This document shows, piece by piece, positions 18,705-63,231 of a stretch of 64,000 bases of DNA. A program made the position numbers and the translations under genes. Origin of the DNA: Pseudomonadota bacterium (GTDB lineage: Bacteria > Desulfobacterota > Desulfobulbia > Desulfobulbales > Desulfocapsaceae); contig JAHJNL010000010.1 of the NCBI GenBank assembly GCA_018820855.1, positions 124,001 through 188,000 of the forward strand. Reading direction: 5' to 3'. The notes below the pieces were generated by a model. It searched no databases. It was given only the letters and a program-made list of their open reading frames with translations, and had not been told where the DNA came from. Every line of letters begins with the position of its first letter. Within the stretch, counting starts at the first letter, position 1.

Positions 18705-19135
18705 AAAATATCAAGGGATTACGTCATACTTGTTGAGTGGATCTCTTTTGATTTTCTATATTTTTGTCCTAATTTCATTTCCTTGTTGCTTATCACTTGC
18801 CTAGTACTTATTGTTAGGATGTAAGTTTGTATAAAGGTTGTTGAGATTCTGTATGGAATACTCAACACGGAATAGTGAATAGAGTGTGGCAGAGAGAGGT
18901 AAAAGGCAGATTTGCTTTTTGTAAGACTCTGTTATGAAAACATAGTCCACATATTCCCCCCTGAAAAAAAAAATCGATATTCTGTTGCAGCGTGTCCTTG
19001 ATTTAACCGTTTCGGGCAGGACGTAACAATATCAATTCAGTTTTGGTAACAAAGCTGTTACCGGGTCTCACTTTGATGATCCGGCTTATAACAAAGTGGT
19101 TCTTAAAGGAACCCAGTACAAAGGAGTAGTACAAG
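18705..19135 (+). other. 431-bp leader region of the cold-shock gene
   Basis: No gene was seen between tRNA-Arg and the cold-shock gene. Close to the start codon are two small hairpins, GGTAAC/GTTACC at 19045-19062 and GGTTC/GAACC around 19098-19112, followed by an AAAGGAG ribosome site. Long structured leaders are typical of cspA-type mRNAs and mediate cold control. No exact promoter could be assigned with confidence. Confidence 0.35.
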
Positions 19136-19336
19136 ATGGCTGAAGGAACAGTTAAGTGGTTTAACGATGCAAAAGGTTTTGGATTCATTGAGCAGGATGG
19201 CGGAAAAGATGTATTTGTTCATCATTCCGCAATTCAAGATGAAGGGTTCAAATCCTTGGATGAAGGTGCACGAGTGACTTTCGATGTTGTTGACGGCCCC
19301 AAAGGACCTGCTGCTGAGAATGTTGTCAAACAGTAA
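19136..19336 (+). CDS. Cold-shock protein, CspA family
   Basis: A 66-residue single cold-shock domain that binds single-stranded RNA or DNA and melts mRNA structure. RNP1 is KGFGFIEQ and RNP2 is DVFVHHSAI, with the N-terminal [13 protein letters not shown] stretch intact. The AAAGGAG site and ATG are well spaced, and a strong terminator follows 19 bp after the stop codon. Whether it is cold-induced or constitutive cannot be read directly, though the long leader hints at regulation. A Lys-rich small gene follows it on the same strand. Confidence 0.95.
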
Positions 19337-19355
19337 TAACTGATATTGACGAGTT

Positions 19356-19388
19356 AAAAGGCCCCGTAACCTACGGGGCCTTTTTTTT
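19356..19388 (+). terminator. Intrinsic terminator after the cold-shock gene
   Basis: A 13-bp stem, AAAAGGCCCCGTA against TACGGGGCCTTTT, with a 3-nt loop and a run of eight T. One of the strongest terminators in the window. Confidence 0.95.
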
Positions 19389-21790: not shown

Positions 21791-23344
21791 CTAGTTTGTT
21801 TTTTCAATGCCTTGCCGGATCTTGCAGGCAAGTTCCTGCAGTACTTTACGGTCAATCTTTTCCAGTAGTCCCTTGACCTGAAAGTCATCGATGATGTGAT
21901 AAAATTGAGGGATCTTGCGGGCAGCCAGTTGACCGGCAAGGAAGGCGTCAAGCTCTTCAGTGCTTGGCGGAGCTGTTGGATCCAGGGGCTGGATAAAGGC
22001 GAAAACCGCCTGTTCATAGACAGGGTCAGGTACGCCGGTGACTATGGCCTGACGAACGTCAGGGTGTCTGCCCAGGGCGTCTTCCACCTCTTCCGGGCTG
22101 ATGTTGCCGCTGTCACGGATAATGGTGTTTTTGCACCGGCCCATGAAAAAGAAGTAGCCATCCTTATCCTGTCGGGCAAGATCGCCGGTGATGAACCAGC
22201 CATCCTCAAAGGCTGCAGCCGTGGATTGCGGATCTTTCCAGTATTTCTTCATAACAGAGGGGCTCTTGACCAGCATTTGCCCGGTTTCACCTGCAGCGAC
22301 ATCCTGATACCTGTCATCGACCAGCCGGACCATGGTGTCATAGGCAGGTCTTCCCAGTGATCCCCTCCGTTGTTCGACATTCGGCGGGACAGTCATGTAC
22401 CCGCCGCATTCGGTCATGCCCATGGAGGCAGTGAGCTCGACCCCCGTTGCGGCAAAAAAGTCGTCCTGAAGACTCAGCGGCACGGCTGAGCCACCGGATG
22501 TGGCGTAGATCAGGGAGGGGAATGTCACTGTCTCTTTCAACACCAGATCTGTAAATTCACGCCACTGACTGGGGGAGGCTGCCGCATGGGTCACCTGCTG
22601 ATTACTGAGTGCACCTAGAAAATCTCCAGAGGTGAAATGACTCATGAACACTGCAGTGCCTCCTGCCAGGAGCATGGGCAGGAGAAGTATGGTGGGGGCA
22701 GCACAGTGGCAGAGATAGGAGGTGGTCATGAAGACATGATCGGCAGTGTGGTCAAAAGTGCGGCAGCGATTGCTGGCCGCATGAAAGAGTGATCCGTGGG
22801 TATGGGTAACACCTTTTGGCCGTCCCGTGGAGCCGGAGGTGTAGAAGATGGCCGCAGGATCATGGGCAAGCGTCTGAATCTCGGGGAGAGTGATTTCTCT
22901 GGCTGTTGCGACAAGTTCTTCCCAGGAGTCGTCGAGGGCATCGCCCTTGGAGCTATGGCTGAGATAAAAAATCTGTTTCAGAGAGTCTGTCTCCCGCTCC
23001 AGATCCCTGATCTCCCCTTCCATGCTGCGGTGGGCGATATAGATTCTGGTTTTGCACAGGCCAACTTCATAAAGCAGTTCCTTGCGCCGGCTGTAATAGC
23101 TTGATGGTACAGCAATGGCACCGAGCCGGAAACAGGCGAAATAGCAGTAAACGATTTCCAGGCAGTTGGGCATGAAGAGTCCGACCCGGTCTCCCTGTCG
23201 AACTCCCAGTTTCACCAGAGCCTTGGCGTATTCCTGAACCCTCCTGTCCAGTTCCCGGTAGGTGCAGGACTGGGAATCGATACGAAGAGCAGTGCTTTCC
23301 GGTGCTTGTTTCAGTGCTTGCTGATACAATCTGCTAAGAGTCAT
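21791..23344 (-). CDS. AMP-forming acyl-CoA synthetase / acyl ligase
   Basis: Class I adenylate-forming enzyme of 517 residues. The P-loop-like A3 motif is FYTSGSTGRPKGVTHTH near residue 170, A5 is ASMGMTECGG, A7 is WFITGDLARQD and A8 is the MGRCKNTIIRDSGNISPEEVE hinge. The C-terminal catalytic lysine is kept in a changed context, LLEKIDRK instead of the usual TGKIDR. The substrate is unknown; a carboxylic acid or acyl group is expected. The gene starts 3 bp after the carboxyltransferase gene, so the ligase is translated with the carboxylase. No carrier-protein domain is fused to it. Confidence 0.87.
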   Translation of the reverse strand: MTLSRLYQQALKQAPESTALRIDSQSCTYRELDRRVQEYAKALVKLGVRQGDRVGLFMPNCLEIVYCYFACFRLGAIAVPSSYYSRRKELLYEVGLCKTRIYIAHRSMEGEIRDLERETDSLKQIFYLSHSSKGDALDDSWEELVATAREITLPEIQTLAHDPAAIFYTSGSTGRPKGVTHTHGSLFHAASNRCRTFDHTADHVFMTTSYLCHCAAPTILLLPMLLAGGTAVFMSHFTSGDFLGALSNQQVTHAAASPSQWREFTDLVLKETVTFPSLIYATSGGSAVPLSLQDDFFAATGVELTASMGMTECGGYMTVPPNVEQRRGSLGRPAYDTMVRLVDDRYQDVAAGETGQMLVKSPSVMKKYWKDPQSTAAAFEDGWFITGDLARQDKDGYFFFMGRCKNTIIRDSGNISPEEVEDALGRHPDVRQAIVTGVPDPVYEQAVFAFIQPLDPTAPPSTEELDAFLAGQLAARKIPQFYHIIDDFQVKGLLEKIDRKVLQELACKIRQGIEKTN

Positions 23345-23347
23345 CTT

Positions 23348-24730
23348 TTATCCTTGTCTTTGCGGCTGGGAGAGGAAGCTGGCAATGCGGCCACGTATCT
23401 CGTCTGCTTGGATGATCTCATCCAATAATCCTGCTTCCAACAGTTTTCCCGGGTCAGCTGCCGTCTCTTCCATGGCTCTGCGGTTTATCTGATCTTTTCT
23501 GTGGTTGCTGCGATTACCCAGTTTTGCAGCAACGTTTTTCCCGTAGATGGAGATAACGGCTCCGGGCAGGGCCAGAAATTCTTCGGCACCCATGCCGGGT
23601 CCTGCCATGGCATAGACACCGGCCGTGTAGTTGCGACGTAGCGTTATGGAGAGCTTCCTGCTCGTGGCGCGGCCTATGGCCTTGAAGAGTTCGGCCCCGT
23701 GACGGATGATGCCTGCCTGCTCAGCACCTGTACCCACCATGAATCCGGGAATGTCTGCAAGAAAGACCAGAGGCAGGGAAAAATGATCACAGAGAGTGAT
23801 GAAGCGGCTCATCTTCAGGCAGGTATCAGGCAGGAGGATACCGCTGTGGATCTTGGAGTTGCTGGCCACAAGGCCAAAGCTGCGTCCCTCGATTCTTGCC
23901 AGTCCGGTGACGCATTCCGCTGCGTATTCCTTTTTGATTTCCAGAAAGGAGTCCCGGTCCAGAAGCCTGTCTAAAATGGGATGGATAGCAAAGGGAACGG
24001 AAGCGCCTTTGGGCAGCAGGGCATCAATGGAGGTTGCATCTTCCAGGGCAGGGACAGGGGGGTGTTCAGGGAGCCGGGCTCCGGCCCGGGAGGGGAAGTG
24101 ATCCAGGTAATGGCGAACCCAGGCCATGGCAGCCTGTTCATCTTTTACCACAACATCCACGGACCCGGATATACGGGCGTGCATCTCCGGACTTCCCAGA
24201 CTGAGATAGTCTACAGGATGGCCCAGCATATCTTCTACCACGTCCGGTCTGCCGATACTCATGCCGGCGTCTTCCAGCATAACTGCACAGTCGCAGAGGG
24301 CGACGGGAAAGGTCATGGATGCGCCAAGTCTGGCACAGACCACACAGACCTGGGGCACCAGGCCGGAAAGTCGTGCATGCAGGCTGTACCAGTGGCCAAT
24401 TCCTTTTCTGTGGGCCAGCAGTTTGGCAGCATCCTGGGGAAAGGGGCTTTTACCCAGGTGCTGGTGGGCCATGATGTCAAGGATCATGACCACGGGACGT
24501 GGCCTGTCCAGAGCCCGCTGCAGCAGCTCAAAGTGGTGCTGCAGTCCGTCAAAGGGACTGTCCGGCAGGTCCAGGTGGTCTACTGCCGAGACGTAGACCT
24601 CTCTGCCGTTTATTATGCCGCTGCCGGTGACAAAACCTGTGGCCCGGCCCAGGTCAAAATGGGTGAAACTGCCGGGGTCAACAAGGGCCTCAATCCGCTT
24701 CCATACATTTCGTTTCATCTCAGTTCTCAC
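23348..24730 (-). CDS. Acyl-CoA carboxylase carboxyltransferase (PccB-like)
   Basis: Biotin-dependent carboxyltransferase with both crotonase-like halves in one chain, 460 residues against about 510 in typical propionyl-CoA carboxylase beta subunits. The N half has LGASMTFPVALCDCAVML and the C half has FLADIPGFMVGTGAEQAG and RRNYTAGVYAMAGPGMGAEE, where the acyl-CoA carbonyl is held. The first about 90 residues are shortened and divergent from PccB. The usual zinc ribbon of AccD is absent. Its 3' neighbour is the acyl ligase and its start overlaps the HATPase-GNAT gene by 4 bp. Acetyl, propionyl or another acyl-CoA could be the substrate. Confidence 0.86.
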   Translation of the reverse strand: MRTEMKRNVWKRIEALVDPGSFTHFDLGRATGFVTGSGIINGREVYVSAVDHLDLPDSPFDGLQHHFELLQRALDRPRPVVMILDIMAHQHLGKSPFPQDAAKLLAHRKGIGHWYSLHARLSGLVPQVCVVCARLGASMTFPVALCDCAVMLEDAGMSIGRPDVVEDMLGHPVDYLSLGSPEMHARISGSVDVVVKDEQAAMAWVRHYLDHFPSRAGARLPEHPPVPALEDATSIDALLPKGASVPFAIHPILDRLLDRDSFLEIKKEYAAECVTGLARIEGRSFGLVASNSKIHSGILLPDTCLKMSRFITLCDHFSLPLVFLADIPGFMVGTGAEQAGIIRHGAELFKAIGRATSRKLSITLRRNYTAGVYAMAGPGMGAEEFLALPGAVISIYGKNVAAKLGNRSNHRKDQINRRAMEETAADPGKLLEAGLLDEIIQADEIRGRIASFLSQPQRQG

Positions 24731-26211
24731 TGAATCATGTTGGGATCATGTTGTTCGATATAGTTCTTCAGTCTCACGGCGGCCGGTCCATACAACTGGA
24801 TAGCGTCATAATCCAGGGACAGGTTGTTGCGATACTGGAGAATCAGGCTGTGCTGGCCACGCAGGCCAAATGGCAGTATCCCGGAAAAAAAGAATCCCAT
24901 GTCTTCGCAGAGCTCGGCCAATCGGGCTGCGCCGCTCTTCTCAAGGTTGATGAAGAGGTAAAGGATATCCACATGTTCCATACAGTACCTACGCAGCAGG
25001 GAGCGGATTTCCGGAGCCATGGCAGGCGTGGCCGAGAAGCAGAGGATATCGACACTATTGAAGACCTCCATCTTTGTCGTTTCCATGGAGAAATCGGCTT
25101 CTTCCTTTTCAATGTTCAGAGCTGCCGGTTCGCAGCAGATAGGGCAGTTCAGTGGGAAAAATATTTCTTCGATAATCTTTTTATGTTTCTCCGGCGGATA
25201 AATGCACCTGGCTTCGTCCCTATTCAGACTGGCATAGAAGAGTAAGGCACTCTCTTTCTGGCTGATCCGGCCACCCAGATTTTTGAAGTCAACATCAGAG
25301 GGAAAAAGGCCTAAAAAAATACCGGTGGGGTGTGAACCGGAGTCCATACATTTTTTCTGGGACAGAATGTGGCTGGTTACGGCGCGGCCATAGATTCCGA
25401 AGAGTCCTGAATTACTGCTTTCAGTGAAGGCCTGATTGGTCAGGGCGGAGAACACGCCGTGCCTGCGGCAGATGGGTTTGACAAAGGCAACGCCTATCTC
25501 GGCAATGGGGTCTTCGGGGTGATAAAACTTGAGACCCGCATGCCCCAGAAGCTGCCCCGTTTCATCTTCTGCCACCAGGGAACGGAGCCGGCCTTCCCTG
25601 TTCATGCGAATGATCATGTCCGGATAATAAATGTAGGGTTCATAGGTGTACCCATAGGTCTGCCAGGCGCAGCGTGAGATTTCCAGGGCATCTTCTTCCC
25701 GGAACTGACGGATATGCCAGGGGCCCAGGGCAGCGGCATCGGTTTCAATCACTTTCTGCTGGCTGTCAAGGAGAGCGTCGATACGTTTGTGCGACAGGTG
25801 TTTTATAAGTACGGTCTCCTTGCCGTCGCGGCCCAGGTTGAGGAATTTGACCTCATCCACAGCGTGGCGCAGAAGATACATACCAAGTCCGCGGGTGTCC
25901 CCCGTGCTCTCCACTTCCTGGGGATGGTATTCATGCGCAAGCTCTGCTTGAAAGGGGATGCCTTTCTCATGGATTACCACCTCAACACTTGCGGGCAGGC
26001 CCCGGCAGGTAAGGGTGTACTGTTCGTTTGCATTGTTAGCAAGGCCGTGGGTGATCACATTGGTCACCGACTCTTCAGTGGCCAGGACCAGCCGTTCTGC
26101 TTCCTTTTTCCGGAGATTGAAGGCCAGGGCAGTCTCCCGGACAAAGGCCAGGACAGCGGCCAGGTAGTCCAGACTCGCGGGTACGGTGATGCTCAATTCA
26201 ATTTCTTTCAT
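24727..26211 (-). CDS. HATPase (anti-sigma kinase-like) - GNAT acetyltransferase fusion
   Basis: A 494-residue protein with two recognisable parts. Residues 1-135 resemble the RsbW-type HATPase_c_2 domain: N box LATEESVTNVITHGL near residue 45 and a G box DTRGLGMYLLRHAVDEV near residue 110. Residues about 145-320 resemble a GNAT N-acyltransferase, starting WHIRQFREEDA, with the acyl-CoA loop VKPICRRHGVFSAL. The last about 170 residues, which include CPICCEP, are unassigned. RsbW domains phosphorylate anti-sigma antagonists; the usual partners (STAS antagonist, PP2C phosphatase, sigma factor) are not nearby. The gene overlaps both neighbours (14 bp and 4 bp), placing a possible acyl-CoA-using regulator or transferase inside a carboxylase operon. 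Confidence 0.75.
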   Translation of the reverse strand: MKEIELSITVPASLDYLAAVLAFVRETALAFNLRKKEAERLVLATEESVTNVITHGLANNANEQYTLTCRGLPASVEVVIHEKGIPFQAELAHEYHPQEVESTGDTRGLGMYLLRHAVDEVKFLNLGRDGKETVLIKHLSHKRIDALLDSQQKVIETDAAALGPWHIRQFREEDALEISRCAWQTYGYTYEPYIYYPDMIIRMNREGRLRSLVAEDETGQLLGHAGLKFYHPEDPIAEIGVAFVKPICRRHGVFSALTNQAFTESSNSGLFGIYGRAVTSHILSQKKCMDSGSHPTGIFLGLFPSDVDFKNLGGRISQKESALLFYASLNRDEARCIYPPEKHKKIIEEIFFPLNCPICCEPAALNIEKEEADFSMETTKMEVFNSVDILCFSATPAMAPEIRSLLRRYCMEHVDILYLFINLEKSGAARLAELCEDMGFFFSGILPFGLRGQHSLILQYRNNLSLDYDAIQLYGPAAVRLKNYIEQHDPNMIQ

Positions 26212-27604
26212 GATCCTCCTTGTTCAGGCGCCACACTCGCCAGCTGAAAAACAGGGCCAGCAGGGGGAGCAGGGCAGCAGCCAGATATGTTCGTTGAAAG
26301 TTGTTGATTTCCATCACTTTTCCGTTGCTGCCAAGTAACAGGTCAAAGAGACTGACGCCGATGAGAGACGCCAGGTAGATGAAGGTGCGGAACAGAGCAG
26401 ATACTGAGGCCACGTTGTTCCTGGCTGCCCTGCCCATGACTAGCTTGGTGGCAGGGGCAATGAAAGAACCAAGGGCAAAGCCCATGCTTATCAGAAAGAC
26501 TGCGGTCAATACGGTGGAGGCCCGATCGAGGAAAAAGGTGAAGACAAGACAGGAGAGCAAACCCCAGGCCATCCCTGTCATGCAGAGCAGGGACGGATTG
26601 AAGCGGTCTGCCCTGCGGCCCATGTACAGACTGAGAAGACCGTAGGTGCAGGAAAAAAAGAGCATGAGAAAACCGCTTGCCGATGGCGACAGGTGCAGTT
26701 CTCGGGCCAGGTAGAAGGGCATGGCAAAGTTGTTGCCGCTGAGCATCATCAGGACGACCGTATAGGCAAGGGTCATCAGGAGAAAGGTCTTGTCCCCCAG
26801 GGCATCCAGGGGAAGCAGGGGGGAGTGGCATCTTTTTTGCCAGAGCCAGAGCAGAGCAAGTATTACCACTCCCGCCAGGGGCATGAGCCAGTGGGAGGCG
26901 GATTCCCAGTTACCCTGGGTTCCGCTGTTGATGCCGCTGACCAGGAGGAGGAGACCGCCGATCAGCAGGAGGGCCCCGGGAATATCGAATTTTTCTCTGC
27001 TTTCCATTTTCGCCTGCGGATCAGGCGGCAGGACGCTCGCTGCCAGCAGGCAGGCAGCGGTGCCGATGGGGATATTGACAAGGAAGATATACTGCCAGCC
27101 CAGGTGACCGCTGATGATGCCGCCCAGGGGGGCACCGATGATCAGGCCCAGGGAGGAGGAGCTGCCCTGAATGCCGTAAGCTGAACCCTGTCTGGCGGCA
27201 GGGATGTCCCGGGCAATAAAGGCCGGGCCGCTGACGATGAGCATGGCTGCACCCAGGCCTTGCAGGCCGCGGCCGGCAGTGAGCCAGAAAAGGGAAGGGG
27301 CAAAGCCGCAGAGCGTAGAGCTTATTGTGAAAATGAGGTAGCCGCTGAGGAAGATCCGTTTCAGTCCTATCCTGTCGGCGAGTTTTCCCCAGACCGAGAG
27401 GCCTGAGGTAAGGACCAGGAGAAAGGCGAGGTTGATGCGGACAACTTCACCGGCAGTAACTCCGAAGTGGCGACCGATCTCAGGCAGGGAGATATTGACG
27501 ATATAGGAGTCCAGGAGGCACATGAAGGAGGCCAGGCTGACACAGATTATAATCTGTCGTTGATCGGATGTCAGGGGTGAACTGTCAGTACTATTCCGGC
27601 TCAT
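26198..27604 (-). CDS. MFS transporter, DHA2 (14-helix) type
   Basis: A 468-residue major facilitator protein with about 14 hydrophobic segments, the size of the drug:H+ antiporter-2 family. The loop 2-3 signature is [20 protein letters not shown], and the motif C region [20 protein letters not shown] marks an antiporter. DHA2 members export drugs, dyes or self-made metabolites. Its place between a biotin carboxylase and the GNAT fusion, with overlaps of 4 and 14 bp, suggests export of the product of this operon. That is inference from context. Confidence 0.87.
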
Positions 27605-28941
27605 ATCTTCAGCATGTCTTCCAGGTAATGAATGTCCATCCCCCCCTTCAGGTAGCCGGGGTCATTGAGAATGCGCTGCTGCAGGGGGATGTTGGTCTTG
27701 ATGCCCTCGATGTGCATTTCTTCCAGTGCTGTTTGCATTCTGGCTAGAGCACTTTTCCGGTCATGGCCATAGGTGATCACTTTGGCTACAAGGGAATCGT
27801 ACTGGGGAGGAACCTGGCAGTCATTGTCCAGATAGCTGTCCACCCTGACTCCTGGGCCGCCGGGGCAATGAAAACGGGCGACCCTGCCTGGGCACGGGAA
27901 AAATGTGTGCGGGTCTTCCGCATTGATCCTGCATTCGACGGCATGACCTTGTTGCCGGATCATGGATTGGTCCAGGGTCAGGAGAGAGCCGGAAGCGATG
28001 AGCAGTTGCCAGCGGACAAGGTCTACACCGGTGACAAATTCGGTGACCGGATGTTCCACCTGGAGCCGGGTGTTCATCTCAATGAAGTGAAAGCCGTTGT
28101 TCTCATAGAGAAATTCAAAGGTTCCTGCTCCCCGGTAGCCGATACGGACACAGGCATCGGCCACAATTTTACCCATCTGGCGTCGCTGCTCTTCGGGGAG
28201 GTGCGGTGCCGGTGACTCTTCCACCATTTTCTGATTGCGGCGCTGCATGGAACAGTCCCGTTCACCTAAATGGATGGCATGCCCCTGGCCGTCGCCGAGG
28301 ACCTGGTATTCTATATGGCGGGGATGTTCCAGATACTTTTCCATATAGAGGGTGTCGTCAGCAAAGGCCAGTTTTGCCTCCTTGCGGGTAAGGCTGATTT
28401 CCTCTGTTAAGTTCTCGGGACGGTATACCACCCGCATGCCGCGGCCACCACCGCCAAGAGCTGCTTTGATGATCACCGGATAGCCGAGGTGGGCCGCTAT
28501 GGTTGTACATTCATCTGCGGATTCAGGCAGGGCACCGCCTGAATCAGGAATGCAGGGAACTCCTGCGGCGTGCATGGCCTTCTTGGCAGAGATTTTGTCG
28601 CCCATGAGACGGATGGTTTCCGCTCGCGGCCCGATAAAGGTTATTCCTGCCTCCTCCACCTGTCCGGCGAATTCAGCATTTTCCGAGAGAAAGCCGTAAC
28701 CGGGGTGGATGGCTTCTGCCCCGGTGATAGAGGCAGCCGAGAGAATGGCTGTCATGTTGAGATAGCTTTTTCCTGCCGCAGGAGGACCTATGCAGACGGT
28801 CTGGTCTGCCAGAGCCAGGTACGGTTGCTCACGGTCTGCCTCGGAATAGACGGCCACCGTGGCAATGCCCAGTTCTTTGCAGGCCCGAAGAATGCGAAGG
28901 GCAATTTCCCCCCGGTTGGCAATCAGCACCTTGGAGAGCAT
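27601..28941 (-). CDS. accC: Biotin carboxylase (first set)
   Basis: ATP-grasp enzyme that carboxylates biotin on the carrier protein using ATP and bicarbonate. It is full length at 446 residues, close to E. coli AccC. Motifs in order: [17 protein letters not shown] at the N terminus, [14 protein letters not shown], the ATP glycine loop [28 protein letters not shown], and [14 protein letters not shown] with the active-site Glu, Asn and Arg residues. It begins 3 bp after the carrier gene and overlaps the MFS gene by 4 bp. A second, diverged biotin carboxylase is encoded at 48789-50192. Confidence 0.94.
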
Positions 28942-28944
28942 TGC

Positions 28945-29367
28945 TTATTCCTTGATGACAAAAAGGGGTTGTCCGAACTCTACAGCCTGTCCGGAGTGAA
29001 CAAGGATTTCTTCGATCACTCCCTCTCTGTCCGCCTCCACCATGTTCAGCATCTTCATGGCCTCGATGATACACAGGGGGGCACCTTTTTTGACCTGCTG
29101 TCCTTCTTCCACAAAAGGGGCTTCCTCCTCAGAGGAGGCGCGGTAGAAGGAGCCCACCATGGGCGATCGGAAAAGATTCTCCGGAGTATGTTCTCTTTTC
29201 GGTACCTTTCGGGGTCCTCCCTGGGGCGCAGTCACAGGGGGGGAAGAGTCCACATCCTGTGTGGCCCGGCTGATGCGGATACTTTTTCCCTCTTCTTTGA
29301 TCTCAATTTCCGTCACTGTTGATTCGTCGACTATGCGGATTAAGCGTTCAATGACATCAATGTCCAT
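28945..29367 (-). CDS. accB: Biotin carboxyl carrier protein
   Basis: A 140-residue AccB-type carrier. The N-terminal helix region MDIDVIERLIRIVDES and a Pro/Lys-rich linker are followed by the biotinyl domain with the EAMKM motif, Lys105 being the expected biotin attachment site. It is the first gene of the minus-strand operon and the only biotin carrier gene in the window, so it may also have to serve the second carboxylase set. The promoter is expected upstream of 29367, where an AT-rich 10-bp dyad lies at 29466-29495. Confidence 0.94.
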   Translation of the reverse strand: MDIDVIERLIRIVDESTVTEIEIKEEGKSIRISRATQDVDSSPPVTAPQGGPRKVPKREHTPENLFRSPMVGSFYRASSEEEAPFVEEGQQVKKGAPLCIIEAMKMLNMVEADREGVIEEILVHSGQAVEFGQPLFVIKE

Positions 29368-30017
29368 AGGTCTTGTTTTCCTGTTTGTGATTTTTAAGGG
29401 GGTACTGAGAAGGCATTGTAAAGAATGTTATCTCAGACAGGAAACAATGTACAATGGCCTTTTGAAATATTTTTCATTTTGCTTTGAAAAATATTGAGGA
29501 TAAGCACGGTGCATGAGAATTTTCCTGGGCAGATCATTTGTGAGAAGGTGTTACTTGTCGATTTTGGCGCGGAGCAGGGAGTGTCTGTTGCTACTATTAC
29601 TTTAGCCTGTAACTGTATGAAAAATGGTTTTTATGTTGGAGGATTTTGTGATAAACTGTTGCAATAGGTTGTAGTATGCACCTGGAAATTCAAATGATAC
29701 GAAAAATCATGGAGAGAGCGAGTATTGTTTTCCAGGCAAAGGGGGATGCAACTCGTGAAAATCATCAAGTCACAGGGACTTGGGGCGGATTTCGTGTGAG
29801 AATAAAGCTTGCGGAGTTTCCTGATACCTGCTATAAACTCTTCTCTTTCCTGTCAGTATTACTGCGTCCTAAAATACACTGCTGTGTGTTGCCTAGGGGC
29901 AACCCTATTCCTGCTGGTCTCAAGTCGTCCGACCATCATTGGTCAAACTCTATACTTTCTTCACTTCATGTGCTGCACAGCTCTTTGTTGTGAGTCTCAA
30001 TTTACCTGGTGATTACC
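29368..30017. other. 650-bp divergent intergenic region
   Basis: It separates the carboxylase operon (-) from the helicase gene (+). No convincing gene was seen. It contains a perfect AT-rich inverted repeat AATATTTTTC/GAAAAATATT at 29466-29495 near the operon start and a short TTGCC/GGCAA stem at 29889-29902 near the helicase. E. coli deaD also has a very long untranslated leader; a similar leader here is possible but unproven. Confidence 0.3.
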
Positions 30018-48788: not shown

Positions 48789-50192
48789 TTAGAAGGTAAG
48801 CAACCGGCTCAGGTTGTTTTTCAAATAAGTCAGGTTGGTAATTATGGAACCACCCTGAGAGTCCTGCCCCTTAATGACGACCTCGTCAATAAACTGACCA
48901 GCCCGTTCCTTTGCTTCATTCATGGTGCGACCCCAGACCAGGGCCAGGGCCAGGTTGGGGTCGTATTCACTGGGAATGGTGTAGGGCTTGTGAAAAGGGA
49001 CGTGGGTATAAACCACTGACCAGTCATGTTCAGGAAAAGTGAACTCCGTGATGGTGCCGATCCAGGGAGCAAAACCGCGCTGGGTGTCTTCAGCTACAAT
49101 GCGCAGTTCAATAGAGGCTCCTTTAAATTCAACATCGTTTTGCTTGTAGCCGATTTTTTCACCGAGTGCCAGTCGGATCTGCTCGCGAATCAGGTTGGGG
49201 TGAGCGTTGTTCAGGTAACTGATACGGGCGGAGACATCATTTTCCACCTGGATACGGGTGTTTACTTCCAGGAGATAAGGCTGCCCGGAACGGGAAACAA
49301 TCCATTCCCAGGTGCCCACATTGTCGTAGCGGACATGGGCGGCGAGTTTCAATGAATAATCTACAACCTGGTCCATGACTTTTTTTTCGTCAAAGTCATA
49401 GTCGAAACAGGATGCATGGAAGCCGGGAGCTGCTTCTACACGTTTTTGACGGCCTGTGGATTGGATGGTGCAATTACGCGAGCTGAAATGGATGCGCTCA
49501 CCATGCTGGGAGCAGAGAAGCTGGACTTCCAGGTGATTGTAGTCGGTGAGACACTGCTCAATAAGTACACCACCGTCTCCGAACTGGCGCTTGGCGTAGT
49601 TCTGTACCTGGCGGTAAATCCGGCGAAATTGTGTGATCTCAGTTACTTCTTCGATTCCCATGCCGCCACCGCCGGCAGCGGCTTTGACCAGGATAGAGGG
49701 ATTTTCGACTCCTTGGGCTCTCTGGTCATCCATAAGGTGCTGGGCAATCTCTTCGGCTTCCATCTCGTTATAGATGGGGCTGTCTGTTCCCGGAATAGTG
49801 GGGATCTTCAGCTGGTTGGCCACCCGTTTGGTGTTGATTTTATCACCAAGGTTTTTGATGACCTCCCAGCTGGGACCGATGAAGATGAGGGAGCGGTCAC
49901 GAATGGTGGCCCGCCTGGCAAAACGGAAGTCTTCTGAGAAAAATCCGTATCCTGGGTGAATGGCTGTACAGAGGGTGTGATCAGCTACGGCAAAGAGATC
50001 GTTGGGCTCTGTGTAACTGGTAATACACCAGGCATTCTGTTCAGGACCGCTGGTGATGTTGCGCTGAACGTGCTCCGAATCTTTATCTGCCTCGGTATAG
50101 ACTACCACATAATCAAGACCGAGGTCTTTACAGGCGTTCATGATACGAATGGCGATTTCGCCCCTGTTTGCTATAAGAACCTTTCCTTCCAA
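48789..50192 (-). CDS. accC: Biotin carboxylase (second, diverged set)
   Basis: ATP-grasp biotin carboxylase. A TTG at 50192 after GAGGGA is chosen, giving [17 protein letters not shown] at the N terminus and about 467 residues. An ATG at 50285 would add a 31-residue leader without family support. [16 protein letters not shown], the ATP loop AAAGGGGMGIEE, RNCTIQSTGRQKRVEAAPG and LEVNTRIQVENDVSAR are recognisable, but several positions differ from the canonical form, e.g. Arg-Gln-Lys for the usual Asn-Gln-Lys and VEND for VEHPV. A short insert near residue 60 (SGPEQNAWCITSY) also sets it apart. It is clearly not a recent copy of the accC at 27601-28941. Confidence 0.87.
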   Translation of the reverse strand: MEGKVLIANRGEIAIRIMNACKDLGLDYVVVYTEADKDSEHVQRNITSGPEQNAWCITSYTEPNDLFAVADHTLCTAIHPGYGFFSEDFRFARRATIRDRSLIFIGPSWEVIKNLGDKINTKRVANQLKIPTIPGTDSPIYNEMEAEEIAQHLMDDQRAQGVENPSILVKAAAGGGGMGIEEVTEITQFRRIYRQVQNYAKRQFGDGGVLIEQCLTDYNHLEVQLLCSQHGERIHFSSRNCTIQSTGRQKRVEAAPGFHASCFDYDFDEKKVMDQVVDYSLKLAAHVRYDNVGTWEWIVSRSGQPYLLEVNTRIQVENDVSARISYLNNAHPNLIREQIRLALGEKIGYKQNDVEFKGASIELRIVAEDTQRGFAPWIGTITEFTFPEHDWSVVYTHVPFHKPYTIPSEYDPNLALALVWGRTMNEAKERAGQFIDEVVIKGQDSQGGSIITNLTYLKNNLSRLLTF

Positions 50193-50349
50193 CTTATCCC
50201 TCTTCTTGTGTAAACGATCGCATGTATCAACTGTTTCCGTATCAGGCCTTTTGCTGTATTTAGTATATCCAGCGGTCCTGATCAAAAAAAATCAGCATCA
50301 ATGAGTGCTTTCTGACTACTACTGCCCTGTAACAGGTTGTCCTCTCGTA

Positions 50350-61438: not shown

Positions 61439-61514
<76 letters not shown>

Positions 61515-61612: not shown

Positions 61613-62899
61613 CTACTCATGGCTACTTATCGCATCAGAATAGATCTGATTCAGTGCTTTTCCATCATGATTATTCACCGCATTCTTGAGATACTTGGTG
61701 TAAACTTTGATGATCATGTCGGTGTCTCTATGCCCCATGATATGAGCAATCCATAACGGGTTTTCGCCGAGACTGAGAGCTGTAGTTGCAAAGCTGTGCC
61801 GGGTCTGAATCATTGGTCGATACTGGATATCAGCATTCTTCAGCGCTGGGCGCCAGACTCTGTTGCTCAAGTTGGCATGATTGAGCTGTTCTCCAGTGGT
61901 TGTGCAAAATAGGTATTTGCTTTCAAGCATCTCGCAAATCTTCTTCTGTTTTAACAGGGCTTCTTTCATTACTGGAAGCAACTGTAGTGTCCTCCTGCTG
62001 TATTTATTTTTTGTTTTACCTTCAACTCTAAGGCCTTGTTCGTCAAGCGTCATAGCCCTACTGATCTGAATAGTGTTTTTCGACCAGTCAATATCTTTAA
62101 GCTTCAGAGCCATTTGTTCGCCTTGCCGCAATCCTGAACAGAATGCAAATTGGAAGTATGGTTTCCAATGTTTCGGGAGAACGGAAATAATAAGCTTTTG
62201 CTCCTTGATATCAAACGGGTTGACCTGGGCAGTATGATCCTCCTCACCAAGCTTTGTGTAGGCAAAAAATGGATCATACATTCGTCCCCAGTTATACCTG
62301 ATGGAAGCACGTTTACAGATCATTTTTAATGGCACCATGCACTTGTTGATGGTCTTGTTACTGATGGTCTTATTTTTGAAGCGTTGCCGCCTTGCCCATG
62401 ACACGAATTCATCTAGTACTCCAGCATTGATACCATCAAAAGAACGCTCTCCAAAAAACGGAACAAGGTATAATGTTAGATGGCTTTTGTACCCGAGAAG
62501 AGTACGTTCTGTTACACGCCTTGAATCTTTTAGGATTTGGTACCATTCCCAGGCATAGTCCTTAAAGAGGACATTGTCCGGTTGAAGATCCCTGCCAGGT
62601 AACATGCTTTCCCTCTGGCTGAAGTAGACAGCTTTTTTGCTTTTGGGGAAGACTGTTGCAAAATTAAATGTCCCTTTGTCTATCGCCACTGTGATGCTGT
62701 CTAGCTGTGCGCGGACTATCTTCATGTTCGTTTGGTTCCAAATTAAGCCTGACGGTTCCCTGATACGCTCGTCGAGATAGTAGAAGTCGACGTATACCTT
62801 GTTGTTAATCTTACGCACAGATCCCTGTCTGTTTTTATTTACCCCAGACTTCCTCGCTTGATAAGATTGTCTGTTTCGATTCTCTATATTTATTGTCAT
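61613..62899 (-). CDS. int: Tyrosine recombinase / phage-type integrase
   Basis: Site-specific recombinase of about 428 residues from the ATG at 62899; a GTG at 62923 is possible. The N-terminal arm-binding region resembles DUF3596 (GSVRKINNKVYVDFYYLDERI). A core-binding SAM-like domain (about 120-220) precedes the catalytic domain. Catalytic Arg is in CSGLRQGEQ, the Arg-His pair in QTRHSFATTAL (the usual first His of HxLR is replaced by Ile, as in some phage integrases), His in GHRDTD and the nucleophile Tyr in KVYTKYL. It points towards tRNA-Phe. Confidence 0.93.
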   Translation of the reverse strand: MTINIENRNRQSYQARKSGVNKNRQGSVRKINNKVYVDFYYLDERIREPSGLIWNQTNMKIVRAQLDSITVAIDKGTFNFATVFPKSKKAVYFSQRESMLPGRDLQPDNVLFKDYAWEWYQILKDSRRVTERTLLGYKSHLTLYLVPFFGERSFDGINAGVLDEFVSWARRQRFKNKTISNKTINKCMVPLKMICKRASIRYNWGRMYDPFFAYTKLGEEDHTAQVNPFDIKEQKLIISVLPKHWKPYFQFAFCSGLRQGEQMALKLKDIDWSKNTIQISRAMTLDEQGLRVEGKTKNKYSRRTLQLLPVMKEALLKQKKICEMLESKYLFCTTTGEQLNHANLSNRVWRPALKNADIQYRPMIQTRHSFATTALSLGENPLWIAHIMGHRDTDMIIKVYTKYLKNAVNNHDGKALNQIYSDAISSHE

Positions 62900-63231
62900 T
62901 GCTATGGTCCCTTCATATCGCACCTCCCTGTTGCATTAATTAATAATAACATGAGGGGTTGTAAGTATAAAGACGTTATTTCAAGTGATTATATTGTTTC
63001 GCGGGCCTCTTGTTGTATGGGGCTTCGGCGTGATTGGGCTGGGGAAGGTGCATTGTTTTAAGCCTTGTTTTCTCTTTCAAAACGGTGTCATTTCCATGAC
63101 CGAAAGCTCAACCACATCATCCTTGCATTTCTTTGACAGTTTGTTCTCCCATCCTGGTCTGACTATTGAGAAAATAGTGAGACCAGGATAAATTATGTTC
63201 TTACCATGTAGCCTTACAACGGTTGCTAATG
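62900..63231. other. 332-bp intergenic region in the island
   Basis: No gene was seen between the integrase start and the end of the helix-turn-helix gene. It contains the long inverted repeat at 63151-63189. Confidence 0.3.
63151..63189. repeat. Near-perfect 17-bp inverted repeat
   Basis: ATCCTGGTCTGACTATT at 63151-63167 and its reverse complement at 63173-63189 match at 16 of 17 positions with a 5-nt loop. It lies between the integrase and the helix-turn-helix gene. There is no T run on the minus strand. Confidence 0.88.

Follow-up and report, generated by a model that had tools for sequence, protein, structure and literature searches.

A six-gene accessory operon of a Desulfocapsaceae bacterium with an atypical carboxyltransferase and a HATPase-GNAT fusion protein

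The beta and alpha sides of carboxyltransferases (CTs) correspond to the N- and C-terminal halves of the single-chain enzymes. In acyl-CoA carboxylases the beta side holds the CoA ester and the alpha side the carboxybiotin (PMC5534430). Among acyltransferases of the GNAT superfamily, those of type III carry sensor domains of the cAMP-, ACT- or NADP-binding kind (PMC8556138). Here we describe an operon encoding members of both families, located in a 64,000-nucleotide stretch (the window) of contig JAHJNL010000010.1, positions 124,001 to 188,000, from the genome of a sulfur-cycling Desulfocapsaceae bacterium (assembly GCA_018820855.1, here G000; 4.8 Mb). Its six genes specify a biotin carboxyl carrier protein (BCCP), a biotin carboxylase (BC), an exporter of the major facilitator superfamily (MFS), a HATPase-GNAT fusion, an atypical CT and an AMP-forming ligase. 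The operon is accessory, and we read it, with a probability of roughly 40%, as a regulated acyl-conjugation and export pathway that has its own carboxylation module.

Gene content and conservation of the operon

A preliminary description of the window, made from the sequence alone, listed six minus-strand genes with small gaps or overlaps at 21791-29367, and the open reading frames (ORFs), strand and junctions were all verified (Table 1). The junctions measure +3 bp for BCCP-BC, -4 for BC-MFS, -14 for MFS-fusion, -4 for fusion-CT and +3 for CT-ligase. The gene identities proposed there (carrier, BC, CT, ligase, HATPase-GNAT and exporter, the last probably of the DHA2 type) also hold by Pfam and NCBIfam profiles. 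BCCP scores 138.9 bits against TIGR00531 (cut-off 115.2) and has the EAMKM biotinylation site, while BC scores 679.6 bits against TIGR00514 (cut-off 626.5) and is complete, with the ATP-grasp region and the EMNTR motif found by profile and motif check. The exporter matches the EmrB-type MFS profile TIGR00711 at 209.4 bits, below the cut-off of 230.2, and the fusion matches HATPase_c_2 at 63.4 bits (cut-off 27.4) and GNAT at 24.5 bits (cut-off 20.7). Given these assignments and the presence of the key motifs, the operon comprises a complete carboxylase set and three further genes.

Within the genus the fusion gene occurs in two of 20 genomes and is absent from the other 18. In the second carrier, G109, the full set recurs in unchanged order at 83-89% identity (BCCP 84%, BC 89%, fusion 84%, CT 87%, ligase 83%); its CT gene is preceded by a gap of 149 bp. 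A search of contigs of close relatives with the fusion returned one locus, L015 (JAQYVF010000037.1), which is probably the same record as G109. Between G000 and G109, the dN/dS values (nonsynonymous over synonymous divergence, by a simple Nei-Gojobori count) are 0.094/0.875 for the ligase, 0.080/0.508 for CT, 0.088/0.635 for the fusion, 0.069/0.421 for the exporter, 0.065/0.589 for BC and 0.081/0.658 for BCCP. The resulting ratios of about 0.11-0.16, compared with 0.05-0.09 for three flanking genes, indicate purifying selection on all six genes, somewhat more relaxed than on the flanks.

In a third genome of the genus, G098, the flanks are syntenic (helicase 89%, C69 peptidase 90.5%, and an RNase E/G-like gene, named by eye, 78%), and none of the six genes lies at the corresponding site between C69 and helicase. 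The C69 gene, 72 bp downstream of the operon, was considered as a seventh member and rejected, since G098 has it without the six genes. The C69-helicase gap of G098 contains 178 bp with 67% identity (E 6e-9) to window positions 29315-29492, a stretch made up of 53 bp from the beginning of the BCCP gene plus leader sequence. The BCCP part of this trace is weak: at the far end of those 53 bp stand 14 identical bases, and the similarity elsewhere in it is lower. The leader of G109 gives short matches only to the same gap (45 bp at 73%, E 0.002; 14 bp, E 0.29). The possible decayed start of BCCP modestly suggests that G098 lost the block, and on this weak trace a recent insertion in the window genome was judged less likely than loss. 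Two further genomes, G110 and G101, lack both the operon and C69 next to the helicase gene.

Coincidental adjacency of unrelated genes would fit the 13 of 23 other fusion loci whose neighbours are unrelated or unscanned, but it has very little chance of being right given the overlapping junctions, the same order in G109, the joint absence of all six genes in G098 and purifying selection on each of them. The set is thus better seen as a unit. Conservation of gene order, proposed earlier as a check on that view, extends to G109; wide conservation of the whole set is not supported.

Relatives of single genes are found further away. At order level, 10 of 257 genomes match the fusion at E<=1e-15, some in the GNAT part only. 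Across 395 genomes of the phylum, the fusion has relatives at E<=1e-30 in 36 (the window's own included), CT at E<=1e-60 in three (the window, G419 at 51% and G582 at 42%), and the ligase at E<=1e-95 in two (the window and G484 at 37%); these searches scored the top three (fusion, ligase) or four (CT) candidates per genome, so that absences in them are provisional. CT orthologues were found only in G109, G419 and G582, the other listed order matches being paralogues at about 30%, and the fusion of G419 is 47% identical to that of the window. The 14 kb read around the ligase of G484 hold no further relative of any operon gene, and none was seen at the fusion locus of that genome (L151, outside the 23 counted). 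Plasmid records gave no match to the fusion at E 1e-10; 643 of them match CT, all below 60% identity and the 20 listed at 30-33%. In viral contigs searched with a CT alignment, none of 32 pattern matches was confirmed.

Table 1. Operon genes and leader, with positions in the window.
Feature	Position	Strand	Details
BCCP, accB-like	28945..29367	-	140 aa; biotinylation motif EAMKM, residues 102-106
BC, accC-like biotin carboxylase	27601..28941	-	446 aa; GGGGRGM 163-169, second motif 288-298
DHA2-type major facilitator exporter (MFS)	26198..27604	-	468 aa; profile matches
HATPase_c_2-GNAT fusion	24727..26211	-	494 aa; Pfam and model; HATPase ~2-142, GNAT ~163-337, tentative C-terminal lobe ~367-470
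Atypical two-domain carboxyltransferase (CT)	23348..24730	-	460 aa; GTG start; MAHQHLGKSPFPQD at 87-100 replaces acyl-CoA-side loop
AMP-forming acid-CoA ligase family protein (ANL superfamily)	21791..23344	-	517 aa; catalytic Lys 496
Intergenic leader	29368..30008		separates BCCP from divergent DEAD-box helicase gene

The carboxyltransferase and the other carboxylase genes

CT matches PF01039 (Carboxyl_trans) at 262.7 bits over residues 6-454, covering both halves, and scores 202.2 bits against the mmdA subfamily, far under the NCBIfam cut-off of 998.8. It is 26-29% identical to 28 PccB-like paralogues from the order, of which the 12 printed have the usual motifs. In all four members of the CT clade, the acyl-CoA-side loop SGGAR-IQE is replaced by a longer stretch of the MAHQHLGKSPFPQD type, GPCAGGAVY by residues of the CARLGASMT type, and YGGAYVAM by YTAGVYAM, so that the canonical acyl-CoA-side motifs SGGAR and AGGAxY are both missing. 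Against solved carboxyltransferases, the C-terminal (biotin-side) half reaches 127 bits and the N-terminal (acyl-CoA-side) half 60 bits. GFMVG and AGVYAM of the window's CT may correspond to the Phe380/Gly421 pair of methylcrotonyl-CoA carboxylase. The oxyanion residues of that enzyme are Ala148/Gly191 and Phe380/Gly421 (PMC5991677). The comparison suggests that the biotin side of CT has been kept and the acceptor side rebuilt. The set had been proposed to carboxylate an acyl-CoA: a complete carboxylase set is indeed present, but with the acyl-CoA-side motifs replaced this step is less safe than was assumed.

A separate carboxylase set, placed in the preliminary description at 46.5-50.2 kb, is real: a 757-aa AccA-AccD fusion lies there beside an AccC-like BC, and none of the matches reaches its NCBIfam cut-off. 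Its BC (48789-50285) was found at 33-35% identity in all eight genus genomes tested, and the idea that the operon is the sole acetyl-CoA carboxylase was therefore rejected, in agreement with what had been supposed. Of these eight genomes, only G000 and G109 have the operon BC (89-100% identity), which is 33-43% identical to the other BC matches listed for the eight; like the fusion, it does not show the genus-wide presence of a housekeeping acetyl-CoA carboxylase. Matches to BC in the window genome are the operon copy, the copy at 48789-50285 and one sharing a contig with a PycB-like biotinyl protein. Other biotinyl candidates are this PycB-like protein and an MmdC-type protein beside MmdA-like and GcdB-like genes (by eye). 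In the same genome, contig C67 (L112, 1408-2076) encodes a divergent biotinyl-type protein of 222 aa, with SLMKRD in place of EAMKM, which adjoins a biotin-protein ligase gene and is a candidate for the BCCP of the housekeeping enzyme.

These data bear on whether the operon is an additional carboxylase of acetyl- or propionyl-CoA, raising the level of malonyl- or methylmalonyl-CoA for use in lipids or in degradation, with the remaining genes as loosely related passengers. BC and BCCP do exceed the equivalog cut-offs that NCBIfam sets for acetyl-CoA carboxylase, and CT belongs to the PccB/MmdA superfamily. A Bacillus plasmid locus likewise pairs an acyl-CoA carboxylase with a nearby AMP-binding gene; it looks like a leucine-degradation operon, and its CT match was set aside. 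We nevertheless consider this explanation quite unlikely, as the other set has its BC in every tested genome of the genus, CT does not carry the usual acyl-CoA-side motifs, the six genes include no acyl-CoA dehydrogenase, hydratase or lyase, and the fusion gene is missing from most of the genus.

The fusion protein, its neighbourhoods and the ligase

The predicted structure of the fusion has a pLDDT (predicted local distance difference test) of 85.7. In this model residues 2-142 match SpoIIAB (Z 18.3, root-mean-square deviation 3.2 A, 136 aligned residues), and residues ~163-337 match GNATs (best Z 15.3, 2.8 A, 153 aligned). The C-terminal part, folded alone at pLDDT 92.9, matches NUDT7 and NUDT6 chains first and GNATs next, at Z 8.5 at best, so that its designation as a second GNAT-like lobe is tentative. 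Across 24 aligned members, E47 is found in 23 and N51 in 20, both of which we take to be N-box residues; in the GNAT part R249 is invariant (24/24) and G252 is found in 21, the two being the ends of R-x-x-G in the acetyl-CoA motif. The fusion thus has the type III layout of an N-terminal domain followed by a GNAT with R-x-x-G, with HATPase_c_2 in the place of a known sensor domain (cAMP, ACT or NADP Rossmann), and the N-terminal domain may be regulatory. The terms "HATPase" and "anti-sigma" are absent from the main texts of two GNAT reviews (PMC8556138, PMC11254643), as far as these were accessible, and among the hits listed from the open-access literature there was no publication on a HATPase-GNAT fusion or on this operon. 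With relatives in 36 of 395 genomes and these terms missing from the two reviews, HATPase-GNAT is in itself a testable protein family.

Neighbourhoods of the fusion were read in 20 of the 36 phylum genomes that have it, in G065 and in relatives from the order, leaving out G023 (a 3-kb contig). The fusion ORF of L104 and the GNAT ORF of L054 were missed by the greedy ORF caller, and L052 is truncated where its contig stops; some neighbours lacked a Pfam scan, and the counts are therefore lower bounds. MFS genes lie within two genes of the fusion in at least six of the 23 other full-length loci (L049, L050, L091, L095, L096 and L098), and adenylate-forming-type proteins, some below profile cut-offs, lie equally close in at least four (L047-L050). 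Within the same distance are partner-switching genes in at least three (L047, L088 and L096), and a ThiF protein and the CT in at least one (L086). In G419 the fusion and the CT are neighbours. At 13 of the 23 loci there is no exporter, adenylating, CT or partner-switching neighbour among the scanned genes.

The earlier expectation that the GNAT fusion and the exporter travel together is borne out in part. A DHA2-type exporter adjoins the fusion in L091, L095, L096 and L098 (genomes G450, G568, G403 and G492, all of one other family, f68). In G450, G403 and G492 it is the genome's best match to the window exporter (245-287 bits, others <=162), and in G568 it is tied-best (273 bits), a further copy scoring 274. 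Fusion and exporter are associated, not inseparable: three further f68 genomes (G472, G550 and G585) have equally similar exporters (243-255 bits) on contigs other than the fusion's, and G419 has no exporter match at E<=1e-25.

Several other arrangements were observed. In L047 (5744-14784) and L048 (360-6786) the HATPase-GNAT gene stands in line with LuxC-type genes that bear a weak AMP-binding match and with a LuxE or LuxE-like relative, to which L047 adds a SpoIIE phosphatase and a second HATPase. In L050 (5241-9966) it is beside an MFS transporter and a GH3-family protein weakly like the lyso-ornithine lipid synthetase OlsH (64.5 bits, cut-off 620). An ORF of 1323 aa in L055 (7353-11324) includes a segment that resembles the fusion's GNAT part.

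The ligase has the loop YTSGSTGRPKG at 168-178, the hinge region GWFITGD at 382-388 and the C-terminal catalytic lysine K496. P-x4-G-K is a recognition motif of the protein acetyltransferase Pat, and around K496 it reads V-x4-E-K, while four compared ligases keep the usual form. This matters for a rival explanation, in which HATPase-GNAT is a regulated, Pat-like protein acyltransferase in the style of type III, equipped with a new sensor domain, that acylates the ligase or CT of the operon to switch the pathway and does not make the product. The type III GNAT layout, with a regulatory domain before the GNAT (PMC8556138), agrees with such a role, as do the partner-switching genes at three loci and GNAT-only relatives that adjoin AMP-forming ligases in three of five such loci (L051, L054 and L056). 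A general regulator could also explain the 13 loci that have no pathway-like neighbour among the scanned genes. The altered residues at the catalytic lysine speak against the explanation, as do the four f68 loci, where an exporter accompanies the fusion and there is no relative of the window's ligase. On balance we regard it as somewhat unlikely.

Proposed function and comparison with known systems

In the reading that we prefer, of a regulated pathway for acyl conjugation and export that includes a carboxylation module of its own, BC would carboxylate the biotin of BCCP using ATP and bicarbonate, and the atypical CT would pass CO2 to an acceptor that is probably no standard small acyl-CoA. 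The ligase would activate an acid, GNAT would transfer an acyl group to an amine, and the DHA2-type pump would export the product, while the RsbW/SpoIIAB-like ATPase domain probably gates GNAT, through nucleotide or a STAS-domain partner. We infer each of these reactions, along with all substrates, the order of the steps and the export of the product. What the data show directly is which genes are present and how they are arranged, that they persist in G109 and are jointly missing from G098, that purifying selection acts on them, that CT is altered on its acyl-CoA side, and that elsewhere the fusion stands next to an exporter or to CT. In line with the preliminary description, no matching described pathway turned up among the results listed by a search of the open-access literature. 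A bolder form, in which a biotin-dependent carboxyl transferase with an acceptor side rebuilt for something else than a standard acyl-CoA and a GNAT switched by an anti-sigma-type ATPase domain (partner switching) give a new exported carboxylated or acylated metabolite, seems rather unlikely. If true, it would give crotonase-type carboxyltransferases a new class of acceptor, and a partner-switch ATPase domain would control acyl transfer rather than a sigma factor.

A number of observations weigh against the pathway reading. Only the window genome and G109 were seen to have all six genes in this order, and outside the genus the phylum searches gave no genome with both the ligase and CT. By Pfam there is no carrier protein, thioesterase or synthase among the six genes, and no STAS gene was noticed beside the operon, in flanks that were not profile-searched. 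The exporter family is broad and, by its family names, often multidrug. To these are added the 13 fusion loci with no relevant neighbour among the scanned genes and the separate exporters of G472, G550 and G585. Finally, the CT orthologue carriers G419 and G582 gave no Biotin_carb_C match, nor did 18 of the other 20 genomes in their order; the 20 of 22 thus lacking a match include 10 of 11 that are at least 90% complete. As a control, the family was detected in 13 of 14 known genomes.

In view of G419 and G582, the CT family may act without carboxybiotin and may not need it everywhere. Taken further, CT could be a decarboxylase or another crotonase-fold enzyme that works without carboxybiotin, like MdcD-MdcE, with BC and BCCP serving another carboxylase. 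MdcD-MdcE has the CT layout without biotin (PMC5534430), and CT gives a weak Pfam match to MdcE (20.8 bits, below the cut-off of 32.7). We see this as a long shot, because in the window genome and G109 the CT gene shares a tight operon with complete BC and BCCP, the biotin-side half is the better conserved one, and the assemblies of G419 (92% complete) and G582 (78%) are incomplete.

As regards the rest of the window, a promoter scan found 5 matches versus 6.0 expected, and a terminator scan 19 versus 10.7 on both strands, a result that was not used. One promoter-like match (11/12) lies at 27574-27546 on the minus strand, within the exporter gene and close to its start, in a scan that is as a whole at chance level. 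No claim of foreign base composition is made, since the six genes have 52-57% GC and other window genes reach 55-58%. A cspA thermoregulator RNA (Rfam RF01766, 96.3 bits, gathering threshold 78) at 19036-19386 on the plus strand sits downstream of tRNA-Arg and an RNase E/G-like gene. The ORF at 61613-62923 on the minus strand resembles a tyrosine integrase, as judged by eye without a profile search, and adjoins tRNA-Phe (61439-61514), possibly marking the end of an integrated element.

Among described systems, PccB/MmdA-type acyl-CoA carboxylases share with the operon a BC, a BCCP and a single-chain two-domain CT with a similar biotin-side half (127 bits). They differ in the acyl-CoA-side half, which is only weakly similar in the operon CT (60 bits, with SGGAR/IQE and AGGAVY replaced), and the operon BC and BCCP are separate proteins of the AccC/AccB type. 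Malonate decarboxylase MdcD-MdcE resembles CT in its crotonase layout and may act without biotin (PMC5534430), whereas the operon includes BC and BCCP and has no MdcA/MdcC carrier system among its six genes. Type III GNATs fused to cAMP, ACT or NADP domains (PMC8556138) are like the fusion in having an N-terminal domain before a GNAT that keeps R-x-x-G; the fusion departs from them in the RsbW/SpoIIAB-like nature of that domain in the model (Z 18) and in its tentative second GNAT-like lobe (Z <=8.5). With the anti-sigma factor kinases RsbW and SpoIIAB, the fusion shares the HATPase_c_2 fold and, in most members, E47 (23/24) and N51 (20/24), but here this domain is joined to an acyltransferase.

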